Positions 17,947-61,919 of a DNA stretch of 64,000 nt are shown piece after piece. The number at the start of each line of letters is the position of its first letter. Positions within the stretch are counted from its first letter, which is position 1. The notes beneath the pieces are model-generated. The model was not told the DNA's origin. It was given only the letters and a program-made list of their open reading frames with translations, and did not search any database. Origin of the DNA: an uncultured Fidelibacterota bacterium (GTDB lineage: Bacteria; Fidelibacterota; Marinisomatia; Marinisomatales; TCS55); assembly GCA_913049685.1 (NCBI GenBank), contig CAJWZD010000009.1:1-64000 (forward strand), read 5' to 3'. Made by a program: the position numbers and the translations under genes.

Positions 17947-18444
17947 CTATTTTTTTGAAACAAAATCTAATGCTAATGAATTTATGCAATATCTTAAGCC
18001 AGTAGGCTTAGGACCGTCTTCAAAGACATGGCCTAAATGAGAGTCGCATTTAGCACAAGTAACTTCAATACGCCTCATTCCAAAACTCAAATCAGTTTTG
18101 GTATTAACTTTTGTTTTATCAAGAGCATCATAAAAAGCTGGCCAACCTGAACCAGAGTCGTATTTAGTTTCTGAGCTAAATAACTGATTGTCGCAACCAG
18201 CGCAAACATATACCCCTTTCTCCTTATGATTATAATATTCACCTGTGAATGCGCGCTCGGTTCCCTTTTCACGAAGAATTCTATACTCTGCTGGAGTCAA
18301 ACAAGTTTGCCACTCTTTTTTTGATTTTTCTACTTTATCCATAAAAATACCTGATGCTGAATCTTTGTTTCCTTGAGCCATCAATTGCATTGAAATACAA
18401 TAAATGATAATTAATAGTGTTTTTTTCATATATAAATATACCAA
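17947..18444 (-). CDS. msrB: Peptide-methionine (R)-S-oxide reductase, exported
   Basis: [30 protein letters not shown]...GSGWPAF...[17 protein letters not shown]...RYCINSLAL; signal peptide. Confidence 0.95.
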
Positions 18445-29146: not shown

Positions 29147-29866
29147 TTATCCCCCCGAAATAATAATTAAAGTAACAACCATTAAAGCAGCTGTACCAGC
29201 TGGAGCAAGGCATTGTTCTCTTCTTAGTCTTTTAATCTCTTTCATATAAATTTCTTTGTATTGTTTTTTTAAACTAGGGTCTAGATCTTTATAAAATTTG
29301 CTTTCAGGCGCAGATACTCCCACGTCTCCCATAATGGCTAAAGTCATTAGGGGGATAGTGATAAATGGAATTGGATTAAGACAAGCGCCTGTACCAAGTA
29401 CCGTGTTAATTAATCCATTGTTCTTATTACCCGCCTCTCTCTTTGCTCTCGAAGCAATATTTTGGGATGTGAATCTATTATCTTTTGAAGCGCTTTCCTT
29501 AATAACCGGTGCACTAGCAGATCGTCTAGCAGACATTGGTACTCCACCAATTGATAAAGATTTAATATTGATTCTTTCAACCGTAACTATACCTAGCATT
29601 TCTGATTCGACAATGATTTTTTCTTGATCTTGACTAATTAATTTTCCTTGGACAATATCTCCCGTAACCAAGACAAGTTTTGCCATCATCCCTTCTGTCT
29701 TTTTTTCAATAGGTTTTCCGGTATTTGGATCGAATTTTTGCTTGATCTCTTCGCCAGTATTAGGGTCAAACTTTTTTCTTTCGATTGGTTCACCTGTATT
29801 AGGATCGTATTGCACTTGTCCCGCAAGACAGCTAAACAGAAAAATGAAAGTGACTAATTTTATCAT
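29147..29866 (-). CDS. Exported protein with N-terminal DPNTG(E/K)xI repeats and C-terminal TMs
   Basis: QVQYDPNTGEPIERKKFDPNTGEEIKQKFDPNTGKPIEKK. Confidence 0.6.
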   Translation of the reverse strand: MIKLVTFIFLFSCLAGQVQYDPNTGEPIERKKFDPNTGEEIKQKFDPNTGKPIEKKTEGMMAKLVLVTGDIVQGKLISQDQEKIIVESEMLGIVTVERINIKSLSIGGVPMSARRSASAPVIKESASKDNRFTSQNIASRAKREAGNKNNGLINTVLGTGACLNPIPFITIPLMTLAIMGDVGVSAPESKFYKDLDPSLKKQYKEIYMKEIKRLRREQCLAPAGTAALMVVTLIIISGG

Positions 29867-29884
29867 TACTAAAACATTCTATTT

Positions 29885-31396
29885 CTAGAATTCAAAAAAC
29901 TCCCAATAGAAATCAAGGAAAGGCTGCTGAAAATGTACACCAATTCTAAAATTATCAGTTGGAGCGTATAGCAATCCAAAATCAAAATCAAACATGCTTT
30001 TTTTGCCTTTAATTGAGTCAATTGATAATGGCGTTGAACCGTCAGATCCAGTATAGTCTTGGAATGCATCTCCAGCATCCATACTTCTGTAGCCATTGTC
30101 AATCCAAGTTGACGCAACAAACTTTAGGTCTTTTCTTAGATCGTAGTCTAAACTTGCCCATAGCCTGTAGGGTATTTTATAGTTCTCATCATCAAAAGTA
30201 TAACCTGACTTAAGATAACCTTGTATATTATCTTGAAAAGCATTTGAAACTTTACCTCCAACTGTCCATCCTACTTTTCCGCGGCCAGTCGGGTTAGTTC
30301 TGTGTGATGTGTAAACCAAATAAGCTTCAACGTAAACAGGATTTTCCTCAATATTAGGGTCTTTCATCACATCTTCGATCTCAAGATTTACTAGATTAAT
30401 AGTAGTGTCTGACTTGCCATCAACCTTAATAGCATGGGCATACTTTCCAATTGTGGATTTAACAGGATACGAACGGTGAAAGCCAAGCCCAACAGACATA
30501 CTGCTCTCTTTATCCGCTGACTTTTTATGTCTAAACCTTAATCTAGGATATAAGTTTAAATCACCATTGAAATTAGATGCGTATTTAGTGGTTAATTGGA
30601 ACCTATCTGTCAATCCATACCCCAAAGACATTCCGCTTATATAAAATGTGTTTGGAGCTAGAAGATTTGCTGTTGGATCAAGAAAAACCGAAAGCAGGTT
30701 TGCCTCTCCAATGTAAAAACGCTTAGTCATTTCTGTTTGAGGGTCCCTAATGCCTCCATGGTATCTGCTCATCTTATCAATATTTCTCTTGTGTATAACA
30801 GCATCTCCATATTGTGTGCGTATTGAAAACTCTTCATTTGTCTCTTTAAGTACATGACCTACAAATTTTTCACCCTTTTTATTTGTGATTTCTGCAGTTT
30901 CTGCTAAAAACTCATCTTTTGGAATTTTGAATTCTCCAGATTCGGTTAAAAGAGTAACAAGGTTGTCGTTCACTCCAGTAATTTCGCCTTCGCTTATTGA
31001 CCCATCTTTAAAATGAAATCTTTTTTTCATTCCAACTTCTAAAACACTCGCAGCAATCAAGTCCTTGCTTTGCGCTGAACCTTGCTGGCTTGTGGATTGA
31101 GTATTTTCAACAACTTGCCGTGGAGGATTAATATATTCTAAAACTGAATTTTTGGATATAGTACCATCCTGAAAACCTTTTATTATCTCAACACCTTCTG
31201 ATTGGGTTAATTGATACAATGGTCTATTATAACGCTTTTTTAAATAACTGTCTAGATTGTTATTTGATAGCCCAGCATCACTCGATAGGTTATTTATTGC
31301 CTTTTGCTGACCAAATAGAATGGTCTCCTCTTGAGCGTGAAGTGCAAAACTTAAAAATAAAATAACTAATAAATAATTAAGCCTACGTTTGTTCAT
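29885..31396 (-). CDS. Predicted outer-membrane barrel protein
   Basis: Signal peptide LSFALHA-QEET; alternating beta pattern; terminal ...FLDFYWEFFEF. Confidence 0.5.
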   Translation of the reverse strand: MNKRRLNYLLVILFLSFALHAQEETILFGQQKAINNLSSDAGLSNNNLDSYLKKRYNRPLYQLTQSEGVEIIKGFQDGTISKNSVLEYINPPRQVVENTQSTSQQGSAQSKDLIAASVLEVGMKKRFHFKDGSISEGEITGVNDNLVTLLTESGEFKIPKDEFLAETAEITNKKGEKFVGHVLKETNEEFSIRTQYGDAVIHKRNIDKMSRYHGGIRDPQTEMTKRFYIGEANLLSVFLDPTANLLAPNTFYISGMSLGYGLTDRFQLTTKYASNFNGDLNLYPRLRFRHKKSADKESSMSVGLGFHRSYPVKSTIGKYAHAIKVDGKSDTTINLVNLEIEDVMKDPNIEENPVYVEAYLVYTSHRTNPTGRGKVGWTVGGKVSNAFQDNIQGYLKSGYTFDDENYKIPYRLWASLDYDLRKDLKFVASTWIDNGYRSMDAGDAFQDYTGSDGSTPLSIDSIKGKKSMFDFDFGLLYAPTDNFRIGVHFQQPFLDFYWEFFEF

Positions 31397-32230: not shown

Positions 32231-32821
32231 ATGAGTCATGTATTGAATAAATTTAAACTTTTGAGGCCGTTATGGATTGTAGGGTTAATTAGTTTTAGCT
32301 TTTCGCAAGACAAGGAAGAAAGAACTCCGCTATGGATAGAAAAAGATGACATTATTATCTCTATCAAACCAAATGCTTTGATGTCGCTTAAAAGCTCGGA
32401 TACAAACGATGAAAAAATTATTAAATATTTTGACGTTGACCACAAAAAGAGGGAGATATATTGCAACATAGATGGTAGTTCAGAAATTCTTTCTTACAAC
32501 TTTGATAATATCGAGTATTTCAAGCCACTTAAAAAAGGTGTACCCTATGCTGTAAAAGTAGTTGCGCTATCTGGAGTTTTAGGAGCAGGTTTAGGATATT
32601 ACAATATTACAAGTAGCAGCCCCAAAGAAAGTGATTCAGAGAAGATATTTCAAGCAGCGTTCTCAGGCTCAATAATAAGCGGTTTTATTGGGAGCTATGT
32701 CTTTTCAGAAAAAAGACCTTATGTAAGTTCTTTTGTTTATATAGATGACAATGGTGAATCAGTACGAAAATTTCCTGAATTGATTCAAATCGGAAAAGAT
32801 GATTGGATAATAATTGAATGA
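32231..32821 (+). CDS. Hypothetical exported protein
   Basis: Signal peptide ISFSFS-QDKEER; glycine-rich TM hairpin. Confidence 0.55.
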   Translation: MSHVLNKFKLLRPLWIVGLISFSFSQDKEERTPLWIEKDDIIISIKPNALMSLKSSDTNDEKIIKYFDVDHKKREIYCNIDGSSEILSYNFDNIEYFKPLKKGVPYAVKVVALSGVLGAGLGYYNITSSSPKESDSEKIFQAAFSGSIISGFIGSYVFSEKRPYVSSFVYIDDNGESVRKFPELIQIGKDDWIIIE

Positions 32822-35302: not shown

Positions 35303-35767
35303 TTATTTAAAATTCACTTTGGACCACCGCATTCTATCATCGTTACTATTTATCATAGCATTAACAATCTTTAATCCGGTCTTTTGTCCATTCCATACTA
35401 AAGTATTTTTGGCTTCAGTATAATCAACCCATTTAAAGTCAACATGCTCTTCAGATAAAATTACATCTTTTGAATCAACTTCTATACCAAAAACTGGGAC
35501 AAGATTAATTCTATCGCCGTTGGTTTCATAAAATCTACTAACGTGATCTGCCACAAAAATATTCAACGGGTCGAGTCCGGTTTCCTCTTTTAATTCTCTA
35601 ATTGCAGCCTGCCAGGCAAGCTCACCCTTTTCAATCTTACCAGCAACTCCCTGCCAAAGATGCTCATATATTTTATTTTTATTTCGCTTTAGAATTAAAA
35701 ACTCAGGATTATCTTCTAGTAAATTAAAAACATAACAATCTACTACTCTAACAGTAACTTTTGTCAA
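35303..35767 (-). CDS. NUDIX hydrolase
   Basis: GKIEKGELAWQAAIRELKEETGL Nudix box. Confidence 0.93.
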   Translation of the reverse strand: MTKVTVRVVDCYVFNLLEDNPEFLILKRNKNKIYEHLWQGVAGKIEKGELAWQAAIRELKEETGLDPLNIFVADHVSRFYETNGDRINLVPVFGIEVDSKDVILSEEHVDFKWVDYTEAKNTLVWNGQKTGLKIVNAMINSNDDRMRWSKVNFK

Positions 35768-35792
35768 ACTAACTCCTTTTGGTAAAAAATTT

Positions 35793-37943
35793 TCATCTTA
35801 AGAGAACAAATTTTTGAGTTTTATAATTTGAGGCCCATTTAAATCGAACAAAATAGACTCCTGATGGTGCAAGTTTTTCGTTTAAAGTTTTTCCATTCCA
35901 AGTAAATTTTTCATCTTGCGAATCAACATTAAGATTTGCTATTAAATATCCAGCAGCATTGATAATTTCAATTTTATCAAGGCCTACGTTATCCGAGCCA
36001 AAGTTCAATTTAAAGTTAACAACTGATTTTGAGGGATTAGGGTAAATGAAAAGCTGGGTAGATTTTGGATTCGTATTCATTGAATCTGAAACTGTAATTC
36101 CATCTTTGTCTAATGGCATAATCTTATATTCATTAAAACCGTAGTGAGCAATTCCTGAAATATTTTTTATTAGTGTTCCTTTTTTTAGATTTGGCCAGTC
36201 TCCCTCATAAAGATATCTATCTACAATAATTTGGTTACCAAGTGAATCTGAAACAAAGAATTGACCTTTGTCGTTTTGATCTCCCGTAACAACAATATCA
36301 TCTATAGACACCAACATCCCTTCATACTTCTCCCCTTCAAAATTGCACCCCCCTGATAATGCTCCTGGGTTAATAGTCACCGGTTCAATTGTATTATTTG
36401 AAGACAGGATAACTGTATTGGATATATTTGCTAACTCTGTTAATCCATAATACTCTTTAACATCTGCAGTTAGAAGTACATTGCTTCCAACTGGTGGTGG
36501 ATTATAACCGCTATTAATGTATACAAAAATACCAGCCCATTCTAGTTTCGAAGGGTCTTGAATAAAAAAATTAGGGTACTGATCATCTGGTCTTATTGCA
36601 GTAACAACCCCCTCTACTTCAAGCTTTTGACCGGCAAACTTTGATGGAAAACAATCATCACCAACACCCTTATCCGATACAAGTTGAATAAGGTAGGGTG
36701 TAAAACCACTAGTTATTGGAACAGTTATATTTACCTGATCTGATCCCATCTCTCCATCGTTGTCTACCACAGTTAGCTTAAACGATATGGTAGTTGAAAT
36801 ATCAACCGTAGGAACGACAAAGGTTGCGTTTATACTATTTCGATTTGTTAAGGAAACATTTTGACCAGATAGCTGTAGCCAATCATAGGATATAATGGAT
36901 CCGTTTGGATCATAGCTTTTGGATGCATCTAAAATAATAGTTTCGCCAATTTGAGCAACTTGGTCCTCACCTGCATGAGCAATTGGACTGGTAGTTGTTT
37001 TTGATGTATAAACTATCTTAGATATTACGGGATAGTGATCAGATGCATAATAGATTGACTGAATAATCTCTTCTGGAGCTGAATCATTAGTTCCATCAAT
37101 TATTGAGCGATTAAAATGCTTACCATCATTTCCAATAACAGTGTAAGAATTTTCAAGAAGCTTAAGATTGGGATCCGTTTTTGTAAAATGATCTGAGAAT
37201 AAAATAAAATCAAATCTATCATCTAATCCTCCCGTAGAACCTCCATCCCCTATCTGATCTGTGCGCGTTGATTGCGTGTATTTTAAGACATTTGAATTAT
37301 CATCTCTGACCCAATCTCCAATAGGATCTTCAAGATCAACAGACATGCTATCTACCAATAGCTTATATGCTCGCTCATTTGGACTATAAAGATTAAGATC
37401 TCCTGCTAAAATATATCGGTAATCTTTATCTTGCTGACTTATATAGTTTTGCAGTTGCTTAGCCTCTTCCCATCTTCGATTTTCATTACTTGATCCAGTG
37501 CTCGCTTTTAAATGAGCTGAAAAAACTGTGAAAGGTACTACGTCTTGAGCAGCATTTTTTATTGAAAATCTGAACCCACTTATATCTCTTAAATCTGTTG
37601 AGATTGACTTGTTTGAAACCAGGTCCAGAAGGGTGCTTCTATAAATAACACCATTTTCCATATCTCTTGAATTGGATAATGGACCTGAAGAATATTCCTG
37701 CGAATTTTTATTAAAGACCTCATTTAAGAGAAGATCTATTCCACCTTGATCTTCTATCTCTTGAAATGCAACTATATCAGGCTTGATATAGTTAATTACC
37801 TTTTCAAAGTATTGTGCTCTTGAAGCATTATTTTCGCTAAAACGAAGGGCGTTGTACGACATGATCGTTAAGGTATCTTGACCATGTGTAATACCAATTA
37901 AAATCAAAAAAAAAATTGATTTAGAGATTTTAATCAATCTCAA
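35793..37943 (-). CDS. Endonuclease/exonuclease/phosphatase family protein with T9SS type A sorting domain
   Basis: LTIMSYNALRF; IVAFQEIEDQ; AGDLNLY; SDHYPV; C-term LFIYPNPSKSVVNFKL...GVYFVRFKWASNYKTQKFVLLR. Confidence 0.88.
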   Translation of the reverse strand: MRLIKISKSIFFLILIGITHGQDTLTIMSYNALRFSENNASRAQYFEKVINYIKPDIVAFQEIEDQGGIDLLLNEVFNKNSQEYSSGPLSNSRDMENGVIYRSTLLDLVSNKSISTDLRDISGFRFSIKNAAQDVVPFTVFSAHLKASTGSSNENRRWEEAKQLQNYISQQDKDYRYILAGDLNLYSPNERAYKLLVDSMSVDLEDPIGDWVRDDNSNVLKYTQSTRTDQIGDGGSTGGLDDRFDFILFSDHFTKTDPNLKLLENSYTVIGNDGKHFNRSIIDGTNDSAPEEIIQSIYYASDHYPVISKIVYTSKTTTSPIAHAGEDQVAQIGETIILDASKSYDPNGSIISYDWLQLSGQNVSLTNRNSINATFVVPTVDISTTISFKLTVVDNDGEMGSDQVNITVPITSGFTPYLIQLVSDKGVGDDCFPSKFAGQKLEVEGVVTAIRPDDQYPNFFIQDPSKLEWAGIFVYINSGYNPPPVGSNVLLTADVKEYYGLTELANISNTVILSSNNTIEPVTINPGALSGGCNFEGEKYEGMLVSIDDIVVTGDQNDKGQFFVSDSLGNQIIVDRYLYEGDWPNLKKGTLIKNISGIAHYGFNEYKIMPLDKDGITVSDSMNTNPKSTQLFIYPNPSKSVVNFKLNFGSDNVGLDKIEIINAAGYLIANLNVDSQDEKFTWNGKTLNEKLAPSGVYFVRFKWASNYKTQKFVLLR

Positions 37944-38791
37944 TCTACCACCTGAGAAAGAAATTTAAATTCAATACCTCGATCAATCAAATCAGGAATT
38001 TTTTTCTGCAAAACTTCCAGTGTATTTCTCTTAACGTGACCAATTCCAATTGCTAGGCCTTTTTTTTCTGCAATCTCTACGAGCTTATCAAGTTGGCTTA
38101 AAATATTTTCAGTGTTTAGATCATTATCCAGAAAAATATGACGTCTAGCTGTTGGCACACCAGCAGAACGCATAGTATTTTCTGCAACTGTTTTTGACGA
38201 TGTTCTGCTATCGAGGAAGAATTTGTTATTATTTTTTAAAACAGAGGCGACGACCGCCATAACTCTTTTATCAGAAGTCGCTTTAGATCCTTGATGATTA
38301 TTAATACCAATAGCCTCAGGTATGTCGCTTAATGCCTCGCTCAATCTCCATTCAATTTCCTCGCTCGTCATTCCTGTCTTGAGTTTAAATCCATCTTCCC
38401 CGGAAGAAGCCACGGAGGATTGCATAGGCATATGTATGATAACTTCCTTACCAGCATTTACAACTTTTTTTGCAATTCGAGAACTTTGACTGTGACCTGG
38501 TAGCACTGCGCAGGTAATTGGAACTGGTAAATTAATAAATCCATCTGATATTGCGTCATTTCTATAACCAAAATCATCTATAACAAGAACGATAGTATTT
38601 ACTGTTTCTGTAACAACGCTTATCACGCTATCTTTAAGGGCAGGCTCTTCAGCGGGTTCTATTTTTTCGACTGGGGCGCGAATCGCTAAATCTAATTTTC
38701 TCAATGCAGAATAGTTGCTCAAAAGTAAAATAACTATTGTGACAGATAATGCCCATATTATTCGTTTGTATTTTGTTATGCTATTTATCAC
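37940..38791 (-). CDS. Divergent polysaccharide deacetylase family (YibQ-like)
   Basis: IVLVIDDFGYRND; VPITCAVLPGHSQSSRIAK; GINNHQGSKATSD. Confidence 0.85.
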   Translation of the reverse strand: MINSITKYKRIIWALSVTIVILLLSNYSALRKLDLAIRAPVEKIEPAEEPALKDSVISVVTETVNTIVLVIDDFGYRNDAISDGFINLPVPITCAVLPGHSQSSRIAKKVVNAGKEVIIHMPMQSSVASSGEDGFKLKTGMTSEEIEWRLSEALSDIPEAIGINNHQGSKATSDKRVMAVVASVLKNNNKFFLDSRTSSKTVAENTMRSAGVPTARRHIFLDNDLNTENILSQLDKLVEIAEKKGLAIGIGHVKRNTLEVLQKKIPDLIDRGIEFKFLSQVVD

Positions 38792-39630
38792 GGCAATCTA
38801 AAAGATATATCAATAATTTGTGGAAATCCAATATCTTGATTTCCATATTGAAAACCATAAGAAAATGAATAAGAACCAAGATTAATACCAATACCAGATG
38901 ATATCATTCTAGAGTCATCATTCATAATGGCAGTTGCTCCAAAGAATATATTATCAATCTTAAATGCTGATCCAATGGAGTAGATGGGTTTTTCAATCAA
39001 TTCATTGCTTTCATATGAAACAAAAATATCAGCCCTATTTAGTTTATAAGTTAAAATATTATTGAATCTAGTTGGCAAAACAGGTCTCTCATTTCTAAAT
39101 GAATTCATTTTGCCAAAATTTACAATCGAACTAGCTATATTTATTTTCTCACTAAGTTGCCACGATATTCCTAAGTCGGTGGCAAAACCAGAACTTTCAT
39201 CTTGATAAATCTGCATCGATATCATTTGGAATGCAAAACCATAATTTATATTACCTCTTGAAAAGCTAGTAGCTAGCTTACTTGAAACGCCATAAGCCCC
39301 ATAATAACCCAAAGGATCAGAAGAAGGCCTATTATCTCTCAACTCAATATCGTTAATTCCAACATATCGCATAGCAATACCTGTGCTATGCGACCTTATT
39401 TTTCCTTGCCATTCAAAAGACAAATTCTCTGTTTCACCAAACCATTTTCCATAAGCGAAAGATAGTTCTGGTGACTTTTCTGAGATATTTAAAAAAGAGG
39501 GGTTTCTCCATGCAGAGCGGAATATAATAAGGTCATTTGCTGAAGATGGTATTGATAAAAATTGTAACCCTGAACTCATTCCTTGAGAAAGAAATAGAAT
39601 TGAGATCAATGTCTTAAAATGAGAAAGCAT
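38788..39630 (-). CDS. PorV/PorQ-family outer membrane protein, PorQ-like
   Basis: FRSAWRNPSFLNISEKSPELSFAYGKWF; barrel; follows PorV-like gene; start moved to internal ATG. Confidence 0.65.
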   Translation of the reverse strand: MLSHFKTLISILFLSQGMSSGLQFLSIPSSANDLIIFRSAWRNPSFLNISEKSPELSFAYGKWFGETENLSFEWQGKIRSHSTGIAMRYVGINDIELRDNRPSSDPLGYYGAYGVSSKLATSFSRGNINYGFAFQMISMQIYQDESSGFATDLGISWQLSEKINIASSIVNFGKMNSFRNERPVLPTRFNNILTYKLNRADIFVSYESNELIEKPIYSIGSAFKIDNIFFGATAIMNDDSRMISSGIGINLGSYSFSYGFQYGNQDIGFPQIIDISFRLP

Positions 39631-40546
39631 ACGTAAATACGTGTGAAATTCCAGCAGCACCTTCTAAGGTGAAGGCGTAATCCAACCTGCTATCCATTTC
39701 TTCAAATAGTGACCAATCTAACCCAAGACCAATGCCAACACGACCGTTTCCAAAACCGCCTCGTAAATAATAATGTTCAAGATATTGATATTCAACGCCA
39801 AAGCGTGCAGAGTAACCCACTAAATCGCTTCCACTCATTACAACTCCTGCGTCAGCTGTTATGTAGGTATTGCTATAGTTAAATGTTGAACCAAGTCTAT
39901 AAAGCGTTGGAAATTGTTCAATATATACTTTTCCTCTTTCAAAAATTTTATCTGTTTTCCACTGATATCTTGAATTTAAATCTTGTACCATTATTCCATA
40001 ATTTGCACCTGACTTCGTTTTGATAAAAATTCCAAAATCCATCCCAACTCCTTTGCCCGTAAGATCCATTGTGTTTACAGGTAATTGATGTCTAAGTACT
40101 TTCACGTTTAATCCTACAGATAACCAGGGAAGCATTGCTTGAGCAAAAGAAAGCATGTACGCATTTTCAGATGTTGAGAGATTTTTAGTATGCTCACCAG
40201 ACATACTTCTTCCATCAATATTATCTACTCCAGCGCCAATCCATGAAACTCCAATTGCTGCTGAAGGTGGCAAGGGCATAGATACATTTACTGTCATCAA
40301 TTGTCTATCTAGCATTAAAAAATGATTACTAAATCCTGCATGTGATTTTTTTAAATGAATTAGAGTGGCTGGATTGTAGTAAGCTGCAAAACTTTTGTCA
40401 ATCTCTGCGGTAAATGAACTGCCCATTGCAACTGCTCTAGCTGATGTTCCCATTCGCAGAAATCCACCTGCATAAGACCCTAGTTTTTGCGCAAAACAAA
40501 AATTTGTAAATAAAATTAAGGCTAAACTGATCGTGATTTTTTTCAT
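39614..40546 (-). CDS. PorV/PorQ-family outer membrane protein, PorV-like
   Basis: AGGFLRMGTSARAVAMGSSFTAEIDKSFAAYYNPATL. Confidence 0.8.
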   Translation of the reverse strand: MKKITISLALILFTNFCFAQKLGSYAGGFLRMGTSARAVAMGSSFTAEIDKSFAAYYNPATLIHLKKSHAGFSNHFLMLDRQLMTVNVSMPLPPSAAIGVSWIGAGVDNIDGRSMSGEHTKNLSTSENAYMLSFAQAMLPWLSVGLNVKVLRHQLPVNTMDLTGKGVGMDFGIFIKTKSGANYGIMVQDLNSRYQWKTDKIFERGKVYIEQFPTLYRLGSTFNYSNTYITADAGVVMSGSDLVGYSARFGVEYQYLEHYYLRGGFGNGRVGIGLGLDWSLFEEMDSRLDYAFTLEGAAGISHVFTYAFSF

Positions 40547-42192
40547 TATTTAACCACTATCAATTTTATCCATTCAACTTTTTCATCGTACTCAAGCCTT
40601 ATAAAATAGACACCATTATCTACAATTCTTCCACTATCATCTTTCCCGTCCCATTTAAATGAACCAGTGCTAGTTATTCTTCTGTCAAACTGCTTCGTAT
40701 GAACTTTTTCCATTGCAAAGTTGAAGACATCCATCTTTACGACAAACGAAACTTTTACACTTAAATTAATATGAACATAACCGCTTCCCTGTAGTTGATT
40801 ATGCTCATATGGAGAAAAGGGATTTGGATAAGCGTAGGCTTTTTTGGGATCATAATCAGCGCGGTATATTTGCCAGTTGCCTCCAAATGTATTCATTGCT
40901 CGAGCAAGACCATCCCAAGAACTAATCCATATCGTTGCATCCGATGAATAAAAAGGTCTTGTGTCATAAGAAACAGCTACGACCTCATCACTTAAAAGCT
41001 CATCTATTCTATATGTACCAGTTGACCCTATTTCTAAAACCTGTTTTGCTGATTTGTATTTTGCCCAAGGTTTCGCAACGTCAGATGGGTCGTCAATTAT
41101 AGTTTTCCAAAGACCTTTCTTGGTCGCAACTAGAACTATTGAATCTGATGCGGTTATATTATATGCTCTTTCATTTAGCAGGGTTGAGTTCCATGTATCT
41201 CCTCCATCGATTGAATAACTAACTCCATTGGACTCTCCTGTTTCCGCAAGAACTGTTGCAGCCCAGATTATAGTATGACCTTTAAATCTTTGAACAGCTA
41301 AATCAACAACAAATCCTCCGGTCAATCCATCAGCTGCAGGAGTATAATGCGTCCAGTTAATGCAACCATATGGTCCCACTAGCCCTCTGTTAATACCGTT
41401 AGCTGTGCCAACCCAAACTGTATCCGCATAACTAATTACTGAAAATGCTTTATGATTATGATTCCCGCCATCATTTGGATCGCGTGGATTAAGATAAAAG
41501 TTTTTTAAAATACTTCCACTGGTAGTTGTGACATAGCTTGATTCGTCACAGGTATTTAAAATCTGATCGCTATCTTGTGGAAGAGGAATTCTTTGCCAGA
41601 TTTTTGTAATAGTATTGTATCTTCTTAATCCTCCCGCCCAACTAGTTATATATATATCATTACCATTTATTGAAGCATCGTATGTTACATTTGCTTCTTT
41701 AACTGTAATTGGAAGACCTCTAAAAAAACGTTTAGCAAATGGAGATAAAGAATCGGCTTCAGTATCAGTTAGCTGATCAAAATAAGTCCAACTTGTTGAG
41801 TTGCCTGTTGAATTTGAGGAATAAATGAGGCCATTGCCTATTGTTATGTTTTCACCGCTTTTAGCAAAAGCAGCAAACAAAGAATTTCCATTAACAGCAA
41901 GCGCTGAAACTGCACCTTCAGGTGTAGATGTTGATGCTTGTCCAGCACTGATTTCTTTACTTGAGGCTAAAGTATATATAGATGAAGTGTCTCGTAAAAC
42001 CGCGAGACCAGATCCAGTTCCTAGCCATAGCAGAGTATCGCCCTGAGGAACAATATCGCCAATGATATTTGTTTTCAAACCGCGATAGGCGCTACTATCA
42101 AAACTCGCGTTTCTCATTTTGTAGGATCTAGGTAGCATATCTTGTCCAAGGATAAATGAAGAGAATAAGAATGTTATAATTATTTTTTTCAC
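40546..42192 (-). CDS. Propeller-type secreted protein with C-terminal FlgD-like/T9SS sorting domain
   Basis: AYPNPFSPYEHNQLQGSGYVHINL...FKWDGKDDSGRIVDNGVYFIRLEYDEKVEWIKLIVVK. Confidence 0.75.
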   Translation of the reverse strand: MKKIIITFLFSSFILGQDMLPRSYKMRNASFDSSAYRGLKTNIIGDIVPQGDTLLWLGTGSGLAVLRDTSSIYTLASSKEISAGQASTSTPEGAVSALAVNGNSLFAAFAKSGENITIGNGLIYSSNSTGNSTSWTYFDQLTDTEADSLSPFAKRFFRGLPITVKEANVTYDASINGNDIYITSWAGGLRRYNTITKIWQRIPLPQDSDQILNTCDESSYVTTTSGSILKNFYLNPRDPNDGGNHNHKAFSVISYADTVWVGTANGINRGLVGPYGCINWTHYTPAADGLTGGFVVDLAVQRFKGHTIIWAATVLAETGESNGVSYSIDGGDTWNSTLLNERAYNITASDSIVLVATKKGLWKTIIDDPSDVAKPWAKYKSAKQVLEIGSTGTYRIDELLSDEVVAVSYDTRPFYSSDATIWISSWDGLARAMNTFGGNWQIYRADYDPKKAYAYPNPFSPYEHNQLQGSGYVHINLSVKVSFVVKMDVFNFAMEKVHTKQFDRRITSTGSFKWDGKDDSGRIVDNGVYFIRLEYDEKVEWIKLIVVK

Positions 42193-43019
42193 TTGACTAC
42201 GATTGTCCTTTTAACTGTATCACTATACGCGTTCGACTGGTCTTGAGCTTCGAATGTCCAATGATAGGTACCAACTAAAGCATTTTCTGATATAGAAATA
42301 GTTCTTGAAAAAGTACCATCGCCTTTCTGAAGATCGCCACTGCCACTTGGACCAGATCCATCATCGAGTAATAAAATTGGATTACCATTATTCATCAAGG
42401 AGTCCAATCCAACATGGTATGACCTAAAGAACACTCTTTTGATGTCATCTAAACCGTTGGCATCGGATGCGTTAGCTGAAACGGTGAATTTAATCGTGTT
42501 CACAATGTTAGGATCTGCATTAGCTGAAGGCCTATCTACGCTTTGCGGCAACACAATTGAGCTTATTTTCGGATGAATATTCCCCAAAACAAAGAATTCC
42601 ATATCCGATTTAATTAAACGCCCTTTAAACATGCTTTGCACAGATAAAAAGACAGAATCCTTAGCGCCTTTTGGTATCACATTTGTGATAGCAGTGTTTG
42701 AGTTTAAAATCTTTCGTGAATAGATATTATCGCTTGAAATGATGTCGCCCATTGATCCATCATCAAATAGTCGAATCGTGTCATTAGTATTACTTGCATT
42801 GATACCACTCCATAACACCTCTACAGAATCTATGGATGAATTCATGTAACGCTGGTTTACTCGAGCAGAGATAAAAAGCTTATCTGATCCCTGTAAATAA
42901 TCAAAATTGATTTCTGTAATTGGGAATGGCTCAACTATGGATGATGGATCTTCACAGCTAGATATCACAAAGGATGCAGTAAGAATTAAATTTATTTTTG
43001 TAATTCTATTTTTTATCAT
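42189..43019 (-). CDS. Lipoprotein with Ig-like repeats
   Basis: Start moved to MIKNRITKINLILTASFVISSCEDPSS (lipobox). Confidence 0.6.
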   Translation of the reverse strand: MIKNRITKINLILTASFVISSCEDPSSIVEPFPITEINFDYLQGSDKLFISARVNQRYMNSSIDSVEVLWSGINASNTNDTIRLFDDGSMGDIISSDNIYSRKILNSNTAITNVIPKGAKDSVFLSVQSMFKGRLIKSDMEFFVLGNIHPKISSIVLPQSVDRPSANADPNIVNTIKFTVSANASDANGLDDIKRVFFRSYHVGLDSLMNNGNPILLLDDGSGPSGSGDLQKGDGTFSRTISISENALVGTYHWTFEAQDQSNAYSDTVKRTIVVK

Positions 43020-43929
43020 AATTATAGATATGATTAACAAGTAAGGTTCCAACCTGACGCATGCCTTCTGGGGAACAATTTTGAACAATATCATTATGGG
43101 TATGATGGTAATTTACTCTATCATTTGGAAAGTCAAAATCAATGATGTTTACCGCGGGAATTCCTGCAATCTCATAAAGAGGGACATGATCGTCAAAAAC
43201 AGCATGTCGTGCCTGCTTTTTAAATGCCTTAAGTCCAAGTTTTTCAGATAACTCCCAAAGCTCTAGAACTAGGGATGCGTTCTGCTGGTACGATATTCGT
43301 TCTATGAAAAACTCCGGCTGCCTGTCAGCTACCATATCGATATTTATAGAATATTCAGGGTAAGGAATTGGCAGGTTCTGTGCAAAGTATTGCGAACCAA
43401 TGCAATACGTCCAATTATCACCAGGAACTCCATAGTCTTCAGCGTCAAATAAGACCAAATTAATTCCAAAGGACGGTGGGTTCTTGTAAAGTATATTTGC
43501 TAGTTCAATTATAACAGCAACTCCGCTCGCACCATCATTCGCACCTATAATCGGTGAATTTTTTCGCATAACACTGTTACTATTTTCAGCCCATGGTCTA
43601 GTATCCCAATGCGCAGAAATCACAATTTGCTTTGGAGATTCTGTATTGAATCTCGCAATTACATTATTCATAGTAACCTCTAGGCCCGTTCTAGGCATTG
43701 TATCCGTAAAGGGCTGAGTAAAAACGGTATCAGCAAGACTTTTAAAAGTTGATAAATAATATTGAAGGGCTTTTTTGTGGCCTACGGAGCCTGGGTCGCG
43801 AGGACCGAAATCGCATTGCTTGATCAGATAATTAAAAGCTTTATCTCCACTGAAGATAGGTACCTTTGACTGGCAGCCTACAAAAGTAATTAAACAAATT
43901 ATTGATATAAAATTAAATTTTTTCATCAT
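43006..43929 (-). CDS. M28-family zinc hydrolase, glutaminyl-peptide cyclotransferase-like lipoprotein
   Basis: FVGCQSK lipobox; FGPRDPGSVGHKKA; ISAHWDTRPWA; GANDGASGVAVIIELA; DDHVPLYEIAGIPAVNIIDFDFP...HHTHND. Confidence 0.8.
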   Translation of the reverse strand: MMKKFNFISIICLITFVGCQSKVPIFSGDKAFNYLIKQCDFGPRDPGSVGHKKALQYYLSTFKSLADTVFTQPFTDTMPRTGLEVTMNNVIARFNTESPKQIVISAHWDTRPWAENSNSVMRKNSPIIGANDGASGVAVIIELANILYKNPPSFGINLVLFDAEDYGVPGDNWTYCIGSQYFAQNLPIPYPEYSINIDMVADRQPEFFIERISYQQNASLVLELWELSEKLGLKAFKKQARHAVFDDHVPLYEIAGIPAVNIIDFDFPNDRVNYHHTHNDIVQNCSPEGMRQVGTLLVNHIYNYDKK

Positions 43930-46900
43930 CCTCTTATTGCCAAGTTAACATCAAATCCAAAATCTCTGTCCACTTTTTTACCAGTATGTTTTGAGTCGTT
44001 CTCTCTGTATTCCCACACCATACTTCCACTAACAGATTTTGAAAATGAGTAGGTTAATCGAAAGCCTGATTTCCAGCTTGTGGTAAATGTGGTTTCCGCA
44101 AACTTCACCGCTTCCTGAGCTTTTTGAAGTGTTCTATTTTTATTCATGTCAAAATTGAAAGTAAAATTAACCTGATTATTGACTTTATAATTATCAAAAA
44201 AAGGTAGTGGAATATTAAATCCACCTTTATGAGCGTAATTCGCAGAAATAAGATACGATTGATCGTTAAAGATTTTCTGACCACCATTCGCTGTAATTTC
44301 TTTTGACATTGTGCGATTATGTCTCATATTTATTGAAACACCTTTTTTTAGAGCAATAGTTGCACCCACTAGAGGAGCAAAATTCATATTTACTCTGGAT
44401 GTCCTTTGATTATCTCTATAAGCTGAAATAAAATCATCTATAGCAAAGAACGATATTGGTGGTCCAGAGAATTGATCAAATTGCCATGATCTGCTTTCTT
44501 TACCAGTAGTTGCATGGTCAAAACTTAGAGAGTTTACATATTTACTTATAAATTTATTTCTTTCCAAACCAGTTAATCGTATCGACCAACCAAGGAAAGG
44601 AAAGCCATTTTCAAGGTATTGCCCATATGATAGATAGTCTCTTGAAACTGATCTTTGCTCTAGTCCAGACCCCCTTAAGTTACTAGAGACATTTTGTGCA
44701 TAATTAAATGCAACATTTATCATTCTAGTTAAGCTTACTCCTGATCGAATAGAAAAATCTCTTTTTCTATCAAAGTTACCTGTATTTGAACCTACCTGGC
44801 TAGAATGTTGCAATCCATGGTCTCTTTCAAATCCCAGTCGGTAAGCAAAAGGCGTTTCACCAATCACGCCCAAGCCAGTTTTATTAAAATTTTCATTATA
44901 TGAAATATTAATTGGACTAAACTTTTTTGTAAATCCATGCATTGAATTAAGGATTTTATTTTCTTTTTTCTTCTTTTCTTTTTTGGGTTTTTCCTCCTCA
45001 GCTGCCTGACTACTTTCATCAAATCCCGTATCTTCTTCCGAAATAGGTTTTCCAGGAATGCGTCTTCGGGAGCGCGACGATGGTGTTCTTGTGGGTTTGC
45101 GAGTTGATGAGCTTGTTACGGTTGTGGGTTTGTAGAAAATCTCTACCAGTCGAGTGGGCGATAGTGTTACTCCAGAAGATAATCTTAGCTGGCTTGATAT
45201 GTTTGAGCCTTCAATATTTTTATCCCTGGACTTATTCCAGCGATAATTTGAAGAATAGCTGAAAGAAGGCTTAAGCCAGTCAAAAATCACTGGAGAAAAT
45301 GATGAATTAAAATTTTCGTTTATATCAGAAATAAAACCTACGTCACCTTTCATTATTGAATTTAATTGATAGCCTCTGGATTCAGCCATATTGCTATTAA
45401 TTGATCGACTGTATTTTGTAGTTATCATCTCCGTTAGTTTATAGTCCATTATATACGATTGACTCAATCCAAAATTATAATCATCAGGAGATTTCTCACC
45501 TTTTCTTGGGGTTCGCTGTGAAAGCTGTTCATTGTAATTTATTGTGGCATTCAAAGCACTTGGAGTATAATATAAGTGAGTGCTTCCCAACTTTTCTCCT
45601 AGCCATGGGATTGATGACATCCATTTTAGGGGCATTACATAATTATTTCTGCCAAAAGGTAAAGCATAGCTTAATCCGCCTGAGTAAGATTCATTTAGAA
45701 CTTCTTTTTGAATTTCATTAGACGCCATCCTCCTGCTCATGCTGAATCTCGTTTTTATTTTATCCAGAGAATATTTGATAATTTTATTATCAGATTTTGA
45801 AGTTTTTGAAGCAGATATATTCATGCTCAATGAATTGTTGATATTCAAAATAGAATCAGGGGGGGATGATTGATCTACCAGCACATCTTGTCCAGGTAAA
45901 TATTTTGGCTTATTTATTGCTTGTGCAAAACTCGTTGATACTGGCACTTTAATACCCCATTCTGAGGGCATCAACTTATCAAGGTTAAACCCGGCATTTA
46001 TATTTAAACTTTCGTTCGAGCGATTTGATCCAAGTCTTCTTTGAAGAGTATGAAAATCGGCATCTTGTCGCCTGTAAGCGAATGAAGTGTTTACAAGATC
46101 TGCTACATTAAATCGACTCTGCAATCTCATAGACACACCTTTATTTCTCTTTACCCCACTAAGTCTTAATTCATCAAGCCAAACTTCTCCTGAGATTGGA
46201 ATTCCAGACAGGTTTTTTACACCAACGATAAAATATTGGATTCTATTCAAGGAAGGTTGTCCTTTTATTTTAATAGCTTTTCCGGTTTCAATTCCAAGTT
46301 CATCGGTAAATAGGTATTCTTTAGAATTTGTAGAATCTCTAAAAATATCAGAGCTGTTGTATTTTTTTATTGAGGTTGAATCTTGAAGCTTTAAGGCTGT
46401 CAACCATTTTAAATCAAGGTTAACAGAGTTACGACTCAATGACTCATCCCATCCATCATATACTGGTTGTGATATTTCGTAATAGTTTTCTCCAAATCCA
46501 AAACGCATAAACATTTGTACATCAGATTTTTCATTTGTAATCGATGGGCTAGATCCATGTACATACATCTTCATTCGATCGTAGGATAGATAGCTTTGTG
46601 CGCGCTCACCGCTCAAAGACATCAATGTTTTCATTGCTGCACCACTAGTATTTGAGGGTAATTCGTTGAACTTCATAACCAGAGATTGTTCTTTTGAACG
46701 AATTTGATTTATTCTATCAAACTCACCCTGCACACCTTGCGGGGGTTTGTAGCTTGCATTATCGTCCGTATTGATAACAGAAATTGCAAAAACAGAATCA
46801 GCATTTTCCTTGCTATAGACCCCACTAGTGTCTGAAGCAATTCCTAGCTCTTGCCATTCGTTACCCACTAATTCAATTTTTGCTACGTAGACTGTAGTTG

Positions 46901-49900
46901 TTTGATCTGTATTACCAAGCCTTAATCGTAAATGATGAATATTATCCCAAGATTTGTCCTTAATAGTATTTGTTGCTTCAAAGTCAACAAGAGGTATCCT
47001 GTAAAGCTTCCATCCAGTTAATTCTCCATTTTTGGTTTTTGTCTGTCCAGCTAAATATGTTGTATCAGACAATGAAAAAGATTTTGTGAAATAATCATTT
47101 GTTCTATCTAAGAAACCTGTCCTATCCAAATCCTCAGTATCTGGATATCTACCTGCATCGAGCGCATTATTCTCTGTTCCGTTAATTTTAGTATAGTCAT
47201 TGCTTCCTTCAACATATTCCCAATTATCATCATTCGGATCATCCAATAAAATATCATTATTTGCATTGATAATTATTTCTTCTCCCAAGGCTAAATAATC
47301 AGCATAAGATGACCCCAAAGGATCTAGACAACCACCCCAACCATTTTCGTATTCATCGCTACACCCATCAAGCCCAACGTCTTCCTCATCATCTAGAATG
47401 CCGTCTCCTATTAAACCTCCAACTGGGATATCTTCAGTATTTAAGGTTCCATTTCCATCCCTATCTTCGCTAATCTGACCAAGGTCAACAGAAACCGTTG
47501 CACCTTCTCCCTGGAGCCAGATCTCAAAGAACTTTGTTTGTGTTTGATCGTAGTCTCCGGAATGAAATGGAGTAATAATTCCACTCCATAAAGAGTCATT
47601 AGGTACAGCATCTTGGTGGGATCTTTTATTGTATCTTAATACTAAAATATCCGTTGTTTCATTTTGCGCCTGTATGGAAGTAGATAAATTTGGCCAAATA
47701 TCCTTTGTTCTTATCTGAGCAAATGGGTTGAACCATCTTAATTTTGCTCTTTTATACTGTGATACTGGTGCCCCAGTTAATAAGTCAAGTGGAGCAGAAG
47801 CTTCTCTCCAAAAACGACGCAAAATAGGGATCGATGTTGTTCTTTTTGAACCCTCAAAGTCATCAATAAATGCTACACCATTTGGGTCGCCAGTTGCAGT
47901 ATTGCTAATTGGGTTTGGATTCGGTAAGATTTGAGCAAACTCACCTTCAAATGAAATACCAGACTGTTTGTCTGTTTCAATGAATGGCATTTTATCTACC
48001 GATCGGGTGACAAAAGGCAGATCTTGTTTGAATCTACCATTTACTCCAAACATAAAGTTTCGCATGGGCTCATAACCGACTTCAACTTTTTCATTCATAA
48101 TTGATTGGTTATAATAGAGCGCTGTTCCTCCAATAAATGAATTTTCACCAAAATCCATTTGCGATCGTACACCTAAGATTGTTTTTTTATCAAAATTAAC
48201 AAATTGGTGCCTGTCATATGTTACATTTAACTCAGCATTTGGGTCGATATTATCTGATAAAACGATTGTACCGCTAAAATAATCAACCTGGTAGTCTATT
48301 CCTCTTTTTAATGGAACACCGCCTCTGGACACCTGCTCACTTCCTTCAACAATCATAAATCCTAGGTTAATGGTAGAACTTTGATTAGAATAATCCACCT
48401 CGATCGTAAATCTACTATCATTACTTATCTGGGTCCTCTGTGTTGAAAAATACATCATTCCTTCGCCTAAAGAGCCTTTTAACTCTGCAGTTTGATTGCC
48501 ATCTGCTATTGTGTCAGATGCAAATGGGTGAAATGCAGGAATGAATATTTCACCATTTACCAGGTTAATGATATTTGGATTTGTTAAATCTATTTTTTGA
48601 TCCGCTGTGCGTATTCCGCTTTCATTTAGACTGTCTAATCCAAATATTGTAATATACGGATTACCTTGTGCATTTAGATGGCTAGGTACAGTCAATCGAT
48701 CATTGACTATTCGCAAATCAAACCCTTCTTTATTAATGTTATTTGTCCCAAGGTAATAGACATTTTTAAACATCAAAGGCCATACTGGATGACTAGGATT
48801 AAGATTTCTTGGTTTTAACATTTTTAGCTTTAACGCGCCATTTGTAGAAGAAACTCCTTCACCAACCACGTATAAGGTATCTCCACTAATACGATCCGCA
48901 ATTACGTACGTACAGCCAATTACTTCATCAGTAGCTTTTTGACGCAAGCGTATAAACCCAAGATCTTCACTTAGTGTATAGTCTTGACCTTGCTCTAATC
49001 TTTTAAAATTACCCGTTTGGTCATTGCTCTCTTCTGGTAATTGTAAATCAGCAAATGCTGTTCCAGGGTTTGTTTCAGAATTTGTAGACTGGTCAAGCTG
49101 GTACAATTCAAAATTCCTAATCACAACATTTCCAATTTGATGCAACCCCTCTCTTAGTGGATAAAAAGAAGGGATTTGAACAGGTGCTCCATTCAAAGTT
49201 ATTTGTGTCCCATTTCTAAACCACTCATGAATAAAGAAATATTGATTTTTTACATAACTATAATCCTTTATTTGCTGGGTTTGCGATTCGCTAGTTCCCT
49301 TATACTGTTCCGATTTTTTTTCTGTGTTTACAACAGATGCTATAGCTGTAACATCCATAGGGCCAAATTTTGATGTAGTTTTCACTCCAAAAAGTCCCTG
49401 ATGGTTAGCTGAACCCATCAGAGACTGAGAGCCGGGAAGAGAAAGAGAAACATTTCCAGCATCTACTGATTGGATAATATCATCCTCTTTGCCCTTATAA
49501 TTTATTCGAATATTATTTTCCCAGTTGAAATCTCGTTCAGAGTCGTGGTCAACATTGACAGAGATCCTTTCACCAACTTTTCCCTCAACGCTTATTCGCT
49601 GCATTTGATCAAACTTTAAATGTGTGTTTCGAGTTTCGCTGACTTTTGACCGAATAAGTTCTTGATCTTGAAAAACAAGATTCCCCTTTACAGTTACATT
49701 TCCTCTGGCAGAAAGAGAGACCCTCCCCAATTGACCAACATTTACACCAATAAATTCGACACCACTACCCCTATTGTCTTGTAAAAATTGAGATTGCGAT
49801 ACGAGTGAGCGCGATGTGTCGTTAATAGCCTTAGTCAATGCTATCTTTCTATTTACCTTTATTCTTTTATCAAAGTACCATTCTACTGGTGCTATAAAGG

Positions 49901-50201
49901 GGACAGAATACGATTTTCCTTGAATTATACCTTTAAGCTCAATTGTTGACCAGTCTTTAGCTACTTCTGTTTTCTTAATAACAATAAATGGAAGTTTAAT
50001 TAAGCCCCTGCTTTCATATATTGATGAGTCAGCTGGCATGATTAAATTATTTGAACTTAATACAATTGGCTCTATCACGTATTTTGATACAGGGAACCAA
50101 TGAGAGGGTATATTTATGATAGACGAATCTTGTTGGCCGTATAATGCAAAAGAAACGGTCGTCCAAAATATTAAGCTAACTTGCAGGGTCTTTTTAACCA
50201 A
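43926..50201 (-). CDS. sprA: SprA/Sov, T9SS outer-membrane translocon
   Basis: 2091 aa; GVNVGQLGRVSLSARGNVTVKGNLVFQDQELIRS, KVGERISVNVDHDSERDFNWENNIRINYKGKEDDIIQSVDAGNVSLSLPGSQ, FIDDFEGSKRTTSIP. Confidence 0.95.
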   Translation of the reverse strand: MVKKTLQVSLIFWTTVSFALYGQQDSSIINIPSHWFPVSKYVIEPIVLSSNNLIMPADSSIYESRGLIKLPFIVIKKTEVAKDWSTIELKGIIQGKSYSVPFIAPVEWYFDKRIKVNRKIALTKAINDTSRSLVSQSQFLQDNRGSGVEFIGVNVGQLGRVSLSARGNVTVKGNLVFQDQELIRSKVSETRNTHLKFDQMQRISVEGKVGERISVNVDHDSERDFNWENNIRINYKGKEDDIIQSVDAGNVSLSLPGSQSLMGSANHQGLFGVKTTSKFGPMDVTAIASVVNTEKKSEQYKGTSESQTQQIKDYSYVKNQYFFIHEWFRNGTQITLNGAPVQIPSFYPLREGLHQIGNVVIRNFELYQLDQSTNSETNPGTAFADLQLPEESNDQTGNFKRLEQGQDYTLSEDLGFIRLRQKATDEVIGCTYVIADRISGDTLYVVGEGVSSTNGALKLKMLKPRNLNPSHPVWPLMFKNVYYLGTNNINKEGFDLRIVNDRLTVPSHLNAQGNPYITIFGLDSLNESGIRTADQKIDLTNPNIINLVNGEIFIPAFHPFASDTIADGNQTAELKGSLGEGMMYFSTQRTQISNDSRFTIEVDYSNQSSTINLGFMIVEGSEQVSRGGVPLKRGIDYQVDYFSGTIVLSDNIDPNAELNVTYDRHQFVNFDKKTILGVRSQMDFGENSFIGGTALYYNQSIMNEKVEVGYEPMRNFMFGVNGRFKQDLPFVTRSVDKMPFIETDKQSGISFEGEFAQILPNPNPISNTATGDPNGVAFIDDFEGSKRTTSIPILRRFWREASAPLDLLTGAPVSQYKRAKLRWFNPFAQIRTKDIWPNLSTSIQAQNETTDILVLRYNKRSHQDAVPNDSLWSGIITPFHSGDYDQTQTKFFEIWLQGEGATVSVDLGQISEDRDGNGTLNTEDIPVGGLIGDGILDDEEDVGLDGCSDEYENGWGGCLDPLGSSYADYLALGEEIIINANNDILLDDPNDDNWEYVEGSNDYTKINGTENNALDAGRYPDTEDLDRTGFLDRTNDYFTKSFSLSDTTYLAGQTKTKNGELTGWKLYRIPLVDFEATNTIKDKSWDNIHHLRLRLGNTDQTTTVYVAKIELVGNEWQELGIASDTSGVYSKENADSVFAISVINTDDNASYKPPQGVQGEFDRINQIRSKEQSLVMKFNELPSNTSGAAMKTLMSLSGERAQSYLSYDRMKMYVHGSSPSITNEKSDVQMFMRFGFGENYYEISQPVYDGWDESLSRNSVNLDLKWLTALKLQDSTSIKKYNSSDIFRDSTNSKEYLFTDELGIETGKAIKIKGQPSLNRIQYFIVGVKNLSGIPISGEVWLDELRLSGVKRNKGVSMRLQSRFNVADLVNTSFAYRRQDADFHTLQRRLGSNRSNESLNINAGFNLDKLMPSEWGIKVPVSTSFAQAINKPKYLPGQDVLVDQSSPPDSILNINNSLSMNISASKTSKSDNKIIKYSLDKIKTRFSMSRRMASNEIQKEVLNESYSGGLSYALPFGRNNYVMPLKWMSSIPWLGEKLGSTHLYYTPSALNATINYNEQLSQRTPRKGEKSPDDYNFGLSQSYIMDYKLTEMITTKYSRSINSNMAESRGYQLNSIMKGDVGFISDINENFNSSFSPVIFDWLKPSFSYSSNYRWNKSRDKNIEGSNISSQLRLSSGVTLSPTRLVEIFYKPTTVTSSSTRKPTRTPSSRSRRRIPGKPISEEDTGFDESSQAAEEEKPKKEKKKKENKILNSMHGFTKKFSPINISYNENFNKTGLGVIGETPFAYRLGFERDHGLQHSSQVGSNTGNFDRKRDFSIRSGVSLTRMINVAFNYAQNVSSNLRGSGLEQRSVSRDYLSYGQYLENGFPFLGWSIRLTGLERNKFISKYVNSLSFDHATTGKESRSWQFDQFSGPPISFFAIDDFISAYRDNQRTSRVNMNFAPLVGATIALKKGVSINMRHNRTMSKEITANGGQKIFNDQSYLISANYAHKGGFNIPLPFFDNYKVNNQVNFTFNFDMNKNRTLQKAQEAVKFAETTFTTSWKSGFRLTYSFSKSVSGSMVWEYRENDSKHTGKKVDRDFGFDVNLAIRG

Positions 50202-61800: not shown

Positions 61801-61919
61801 GGCGAAATATCCACACTAATGAGGGTACCCTCTGAAGTATCAAAAGATAATGTAGTATCGTTTTGACCTGCAAAGGCAAAGACTATTATAAACCCCCAAT
61901 TAAGTAGCCAACTTTTCAT
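58842..61919 (-). CDS. Exported TolB-like propeller plus amidohydrolase fusion
   Basis: FSPDGEKILFTSDRSGSDDLWV; GRTIMPGMFDAHGHYGSP; EPGKLADFVIMQKNPLENIRNTRTIEYVVKNG. Confidence 0.92.
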   Translation of the reverse strand: MKSWLLNWGFIIVFAFAGQNDTTLSFDTSEGTLISVDISPNGKTIAFDLLGHIYLMPSSGGTAEAITKGTSWNMLPRFSPDGEKILFTSDRSGSDDLWVQNIKTGNMKNVSKMDIPVHQGTWSTDGKHVFGTALNMKVRHPVYRFNMYGKKQEIIPAGSRSPVNHFAMHPTNNLIYFSHGDGPLYRSGDRIKTYNIQNGEIKTYVDRAGGAANPTLSQDGKFLAYVHRDDRQTVLVVRNIQTNEEKIVNRNLDFDRMDGGSFYGSYTNMSWHPNNKEIFISYDGGIHSVNVVTMKTKKINFTARVKRQVKETIRFKLDVPRDKAVTRSHRWSQQTPAGILYESLGDLYLKNGTKIKNLTESTDHETSPHYDPRTRKVYYASWNDNEMGAVFQIDLSGNKKKKITKKSSQYGSITSSNDGALAYMRGAGSLMNGNHLERQTDFELILNENGSEKILASITWSRNRYAKRPPSVLFGNDNRIYFSDYVGDVLTLKSISRSGLDEREVYKFPHATRAIISPNMDWIAFREYHRSYVTPFEFFGKAVSISAEDNLGFTQRVDKKYDGDFMSWSSDGNSLMWTRGKHHYEKSLKAIIEKKSKLTKNNISFSYDIDKPSTTIVFKNVRVLTMNEDKDILEGVSILVRNNKIISVGDEVRIPKSAKVFDMEGRTIMPGMFDAHGHYGSPISALNVIEQNLYGLKANLAYGVTTMYDVYGTTQKDFWVSDMLQKGNIDGPRIFSVGDPIFVTKYRTKMYRPIKSLSDALEHVQFNKDHGATAVKDYSNHNRIARQHLVEASRQLGVNIISESFSNPQMNLTQIIDGFTGLEHTLGLEPIYEDVVQLLKSTKLGITPTFIVVYNGPSGETFFYQTERLWEDRKLLNFFRKDELIKLRRPTFYWPDDHYAAQMGLTMKKLYDRGITMQMGAHGNMMGLGAHWEMELFTHGSFSNYDAIEIATINGFKHHGLDHILGSVEPGKLADFVIMQKNPLENIRNTRTIEYVVKNGVVYSGKDASRVFPNPMPSQKLYFKK

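Follow-up and report, generated by a model that had tools for sequence, protein, structure and literature searches.

We propose that the Q-rule system known from Bacteroidota, in which glutamine (Gln) directly follows the cleavage site of signal peptidase I (SPI) and is cyclised by a glutaminyl cyclase (QC), very probably operates in an uncultured Fidelibacterota bacterium. The window analysed here is a stretch of 64,000 nucleotides of contig CAJWZD010000009.1, and on its reverse strand (the strand of all features below unless stated otherwise) a gene at 43006–43929 encodes a 307-residue M28 lipoprotein (PF04389, E=5.7e-31, one M28 domain) that we assign to the QCs. The contig belongs to a 1.63 Mb assembly (79% complete), and the nearest QC relatives, the closest being L001 (TMED108) with 85% identity, place the organism in Candidatus Marinimicrobia (Neomarinimicrobiota, now Fidelibacterota, formerly SAR406), in agreement with an initial annotation that suspected a host of the Fibrobacteres–Chlorobi–Bacteroidetes (FCB) type outside Bacteroidota. 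In the proposed mechanism, Sec-exported proteins carry Gln immediately after the SPI site, as the statistics of their sequences indicate, and cleavage would leave this residue at the N-terminus. A lipid-anchored periplasmic QC, presumably co-translated with the type IX secretion system (T9SS) translocon SprA, would then convert it to pyroglutamate, as the conserved one-zinc active site suggests, and by analogy with work on Porphyromonas gingivalis the cap would shield proteins of the periplasm and outer membrane, and those secreted by the T9SS, from aminopeptidases.

The preference for Gln was assessed with our own calibrated signal-peptide scorer, which considers the charge of the n-region, the hydrophobic core and the residues at −3 and −1, ignores position +1 and beyond, and excludes lipoproteins as well as proteins with additional membrane-spanning segments. 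In the window and 20 further stretches of the same genome (462 kb, 28% of the assembly), Gln occupied +1 in 36 of 79 SPI candidates (46%, a rough figure), the background being 3.1% (binomial p 4e-33), an approximately 15-fold excess over the sampled genome rather than a frequency near background. Positions +2 to +5 held Gln in 8, 6, 6 and 1 candidates, a small residue followed by Gln lay no more than a few residues from the predicted site in 51/79 (65%), and [AGS]Q pairs were far more frequent near the site than among residues 60–200 (odds ratio 11.9). On three stretches of Bacteroidota plasmids the same script returned 10/20 (50%) exact and 13/20 (65%) tolerant matches; on E. coli K-12 it returned 2/20 (odds ratio 1.3). 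The genome did not differ from the plasmids (p 0.80) and did differ from E. coli (p 0.004). Hence, the preference greatly exceeds chance and is on a par with that of Bacteroidota, and the genome has the high share of Gln among SPI substrates that marks a Q-rule organism, for which the yardstick is Bacteroidota with above 48% by SignalP. Nine complete genes in the sampled stretches encode a protein with a T9SS sorting tail, and reading by eye showed [AGS]Q where the signal peptide ends in every one of them; the script hit five of these sites exactly, and for the remaining four it was off by up to a few residues or chose another start.

Within the window itself there were 16 SPI candidates, seven with Gln exactly at +1 and three more with Gln within four residues. 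The initial annotation had listed 12 sites followed by Gln, and all are present in frame, although two are doubtful: at 29147–29866 an LFSC lipobox precedes LAG-Q, and 18566–20746 is a long frame that opens on INA-Q, with no upstream ATG, GTG or TTG distant enough for a full signal peptide, which may reflect a rare start codon or an assembly error. The accompanying statement that exceptions are few was somewhat optimistic.

Analysis of the M28 protein supports the second component of the system. The key residues, as defined by the structure of P. gingivalis QC (PgQC; PMC7948796), were read off an alignment of the window protein with 80 relatives (L001–L080). A lipobox cysteine, Cys19 (FVG^C; 43873–43875), predicts a lipid anchor. 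The single-zinc ligands Asp132 (43534–43536), Asp165 and His276, corresponding to PgQC D149, D183 and H299, are invariant in the entire set, and Asp as the second ligand is specific to bacteroidal QC (PMC7948796). All three catalytic residues are present: Glu164 (PgQC E182; 43435–43440 together with Asp165), Asp198 (PgQC D218; 43336–43338) and Asp246, equivalent to E201, D248 and D305 of human QC, a set absent from aminopeptidases. E182, D218 and the DDH motif (Asp246-Asp247-His248; 43186–43194) are kept in essentially all relatives, with one unreadable residue at D218. After the ligand Asp132 the window protein, all Fidelibacterota and 12/17 others have Gly, the residue of Bacteroidota QC, where aminopeptidases have Asn or Asp. 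An M28 paralogue from the same genome (L081) carries the aminopeptidase set DN/EE/SDH, and the two-zinc ligand pair DN and EE was not found in the window protein. The QC features and lipobox that the initial annotation had pointed out thus hold.

Sequence and fold comparisons point in the same direction. The best PDB matches were the Bacteroidota QCs 3gux, 3tc8, 6qro, 6qql, 7cje and 4fuu (E 5e-54 to 3e-44), with classical aminopeptidases at 5e-13 or worse, and an AlphaFold2 model (pLDDT 90.2) superposed on Bacteroidota QCs with template-modelling (TM) scores of 0.87–0.92 and a root-mean-square deviation (rmsd) of 1.9 (0.87/0.92 for the Tannerella forsythia QC), compared with 0.68/0.75 and 3.8 for the Streptomyces griseus aminopeptidase 1qq9. 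In a tree whose deep branches are poorly resolved and whose outgroup is one long-branched row, three further M28 paralogues of the genome having been left out, the window protein lies in a well-supported Fidelibacterota clade, with Bacteroidota QCs inside a wider FCB set of QCs and paralogue L081 far outside. Sequence, tree and predicted fold therefore all group the protein with Bacteroidota QCs and not with aminopeptidases. A search of the assembly for the plant-type (type I) QC, PF05096, found none. On sequence and modelled structure, we class the window protein by descent among the bacteroidal-type QCs, with a modified substrate pocket and a predicted cyclase activity.

Other members of the superfamily are less close. 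Animal type II QCs (human QPCT, Drosophila QC) share the fold and the catalytic residues; however, they are about 20% identical, have Glu202 where the window protein has a zinc-binding Asp, and are secreted or Golgi enzymes acting on hormones and chemokines. Solved M28 QCs from outside Bacteroidota, 7d1b of the Planctomycete Fimbriiglobus ruber and 7d18 of Acidobacteriales, are more distant than the Bacteroidota enzymes (TM 0.81 and 0.75 by query length), and we know of no Q-rule for the planctomycete and acidobacterial QCs. The M28 aminopeptidases, such as S. griseus SgAP and Bacillus subtilis YwaD/BSAP, share the superfamily and core fold but bind two zinc ions, carry DN/EE/SDH and match more weakly in both sequence and fold.

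The QC gene directly follows sprA (43926–50201; PF14349, 1.1e-31), whose product has the site LYG^QQDSSI, and the sprA stop and the QC start overlap as ATGA. The physical linkage to T9SS genes noted in the initial annotation proved to be conserved: among 80 loci compared, sprA immediately precedes QC in the same orientation in every Fidelibacterota-type locus with upstream DNA, mostly overlapping or within about 10 nt. Outside Fidelibacterota the adjacency was seen in 5 of about 17 loci, with overlap or zero spacing in L060 (Zixibacteria) and L076, 10 nt in L069 and looser spacing in L068 and L072 (Calditrichota); for Bacteroidota it was judged from the literature on P. gingivalis only. The genome also encodes GldM/PorM, a C25 peptidase and 26 sorting-tail matches. 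The connection with the T9SS is one of gene order, from which any further link would have to be deduced.

Both components extend beyond this genome. QC was detected in 147 of 149 Fidelibacterota genomes of at least 85% completeness (E≤1e-3), including streamlined genomes of 0.8–1.0 Mb; nearly all matched at the strength of a full-length QC, and a few counted only through weak matches to M28 paralogues. Gln stood at +1 in 100/318 candidates from other Fidelibacterota, which are not independent as many derive from orthologous operon genes, and in 7/17, 3/19 and 3/16 from randomly placed stretches. In samples that are small and mostly from single metagenome-assembled genomes (MAGs), the counts were 11/23 and 10/24 for the L074 group, 7/19 for Calditrichota, 7/17 for SpSt-1156 and 5/13 for KSB1. 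The L074 record, labelled Bacteroidetes, had been tried as an entry to Bacteroidota chromosomes and was set aside, its group being a small separate one of nine genomes. Zixibacteria are weakly enriched (7/46, odds ratio 4.3), and the reading that they combine QC with no Gln preference, taken from 1/21 in a small sample, was dropped once more sequence was available. An Aminicenantes MAG, G155 (L070, L140–L143, L193–L198), has QC and Gln in 9/27; no SprA_N match was found in this genome, and the preference may thus occur without a T9SS. Cloacimonadota (L062, L067, L073, L077, L080, L128–L139, L213–L220) possess SprA and a QC with all catalytic residues. QC and the +1 Gln probably predate the split between Bacteroidota and Fidelibacterota, or else spread early among FCB-type lineages.

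Several observations weigh against a functioning Q-rule in this organism, and two of them are the strongest warnings. Cloacimonadota show Gln at +1 in only 1/40 candidates despite their intact QC, so that QC alone does not imply the Q-rule; Glu is found there in 8/40 (p 7e-3, paralogues among them), perhaps indicating a Glu-using variant or a QC with a different job. Moreover, Trp298 of PgQC, which is reported to be conserved among type II QCs, is His275 in the window protein (43102–43107 together with His276), and Phe294 is missing or replaced. His is found at this position in 18/18 members of the window clade, and Trp in 45/46 other Fidelibacterota. QCs of other Gln-enriched lineages likewise lack Phe294, and in the tree the His clade falls within QCs that carry Trp, so that we read these differences as a derived pocket rather than lost family membership. 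A Trp-to-His change, apparently independent, was also observed in L074 and L078 of another lineage. In addition, the two more distant Fidelibacterota genomes (3/19 and 3/16) are less enriched, the assembly is only 79% complete, and our home-made predictor, with about 4% decoy matches, makes exact percentages only rough.

Among other explanations, the one that fares best, though we consider it rather doubtful, is that QC is a specific part of the T9SS serving SprA and its cargo or shuttle proteins, with the genome-wide Gln following from a shared pathway. It would account for sprA standing directly next to QC wherever a Fidelibacterota-type locus has upstream DNA, as well as in L060, L068, L069, L072 and L076, and for the Gln in 9/9 sorting-tail cargo proteins; it sits poorly, however, with Aminicenantes G155, with the conclusion of Bochtler et al. 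(2018; PMC5837995) that cyclisation has no role in T9SS targeting, and with the P. gingivalis QC sharing its operon with PG_2158 and hemG (PMC10653852). More speculatively, and in our judgement unlikely, pyroglutamate capping and SprA might constitute a single functional unit of ancient origin, preserved as an overlapping sprA–QC pair in several phyla, in which cyclisation acts on SprA, its partners or its cargo and the genome-wide Q-rule of Bacteroidota is a later generalisation. We regard it as improbable that the +1 Gln is merely an SPI or c-region preference inherited from a QC-using ancestor, with a weak or redirected W298H enzyme leaving most Gln open or spontaneously cyclised. The His substitution throughout the window clade and in L074 and L078 would fit such a history, as would the separation of QC from Gln in Cloacimonadota, but the His clade has the strongest enrichment (36/79; 33/82) and a second His group reaches 11/23, suggesting that selection is intact, and E. 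coli lacks such a default preference. Finally, an ordinary periplasmic aminopeptidase that happens to lie near sprA, as the purely M28 or aminopeptidase-like Pfam and NCBIfam names and the loss of Trp298 and Phe294 might suggest, is highly improbable for a protein with Glu-Asp rather than Glu-Glu, DG rather than DN and DDH rather than SDH, whose sequence, tree position and fold are nearest to proven QCs.

The remainder of the operon may hold additional T9SS parts. QC is followed by a conserved lipoprotein of unknown family (42189–43019, taking an internal ATG as the start; the first possible is at 43094), an exported protein with a C-terminal FlgD_ig-like domain (40546–42192; ILG^Q), two PorV/PorQ-family proteins (39614–40546, CFA^Q, NF033709 2.5e-23, slightly under the cut-off; and the weaker 38788–39660, 7.4e-11, also under it), a divergent polysaccharide deacetylase kept in the operon (37940–38791; PF04748, 3.6e-69) and an endonuclease/phosphatase-domain protein with a T9SS C-terminal sorting domain (35793–37943; PF18962, 3.8e-9; THG^Q). 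This block from sprA to the deacetylase, often with the T9SS-tailed endonuclease, is kept across Fidelibacterota (window 35303–43094; L001–L066), and its lipoprotein, its FlgD_ig protein and its deacetylase are candidates for new components associated with the T9SS. Elsewhere in the window, Gln follows predicted sites in an exported MsrB (17947–18444; SelR domain, PF01641, 1.5e-53; LMA^Q), in exported proteins at 29885–31396 (LHA^Q) and 32231–32821 (forward strand; SFS^Q), and in a dienelactone-hydrolase-like protein (62019–62969, forward strand; VFS^Q). An exported amidohydrolase with a beta-propeller (58842–61919; FAG^Q) has its predicted site one residue upstream, and its identity here corrects the initial annotation; the TonB-receptor plug domain lies in the TonB-dependent receptor-like protein at 1571–3904 (TFS^QVSS, with the site predicted a few residues further downstream).

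Like P. gingivalis with its QC, PG_2157, this organism combines many SPI substrates bearing +1 Gln, T9SS cargo among them, with a lipid-anchored one-zinc M28 QC; it differs in its phylum, in having QC after sprA rather than with PG_2158 and hemG, and in the two pocket positions, and pyroglutamate is here a prediction. The Gln statistic, together with the residues and phylogeny of the QC, supports the match to the Bacteroidota Q-rule drawn in the initial annotation. Bochtler et al. (2018) described the Q-rule as Bacteroidetes-specific, with outliers such as Ignavibacterium album (77%) and Chloroherpeton (55%) "with no obvious pattern", and remarked on its coincidence with the T9SS (PMC5837995), while Szczesniak et al. 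(2023) placed it "exclusively in the Bacteroidetes phylum" and showed that QC, encoded in the operon PG_2157–2159, is essential in P. gingivalis and guards against proteolysis (PMC10653852). Both attribute the rule to unusual proteolytic pressure in Bacteroidetes (PMC5837995, PMC10653852). A literature search found no paper linking Marinimicrobia to glutaminyl cyclase, and as far as could be found the sprA–QC operon is undescribed.

The type of system is thus familiar and the phylum is new, and the enrichment in Fidelibacterota and other lineages contradicts its published restriction to Bacteroidetes. With the Q-rule apparent at full strength in this marine phylum, and in several other lineages from smaller samples, its origin moves back in time and an explanation by niche is weakened; the trait seems to be older and more widespread than had been assumed. 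Cloacimonadota, with QC and without Gln, and Aminicenantes, with Gln and without SprA, offer natural contrasts, and the existence of a cultivated strain, Fidelibacter multiformis IA91 (PMC11652737), makes the Q-rule in Fidelibacterota directly testable. The conserved sprA–QC operon also revives a question of 2018, put aside at the time, about a link between pyroglutamate and type IX secretion.
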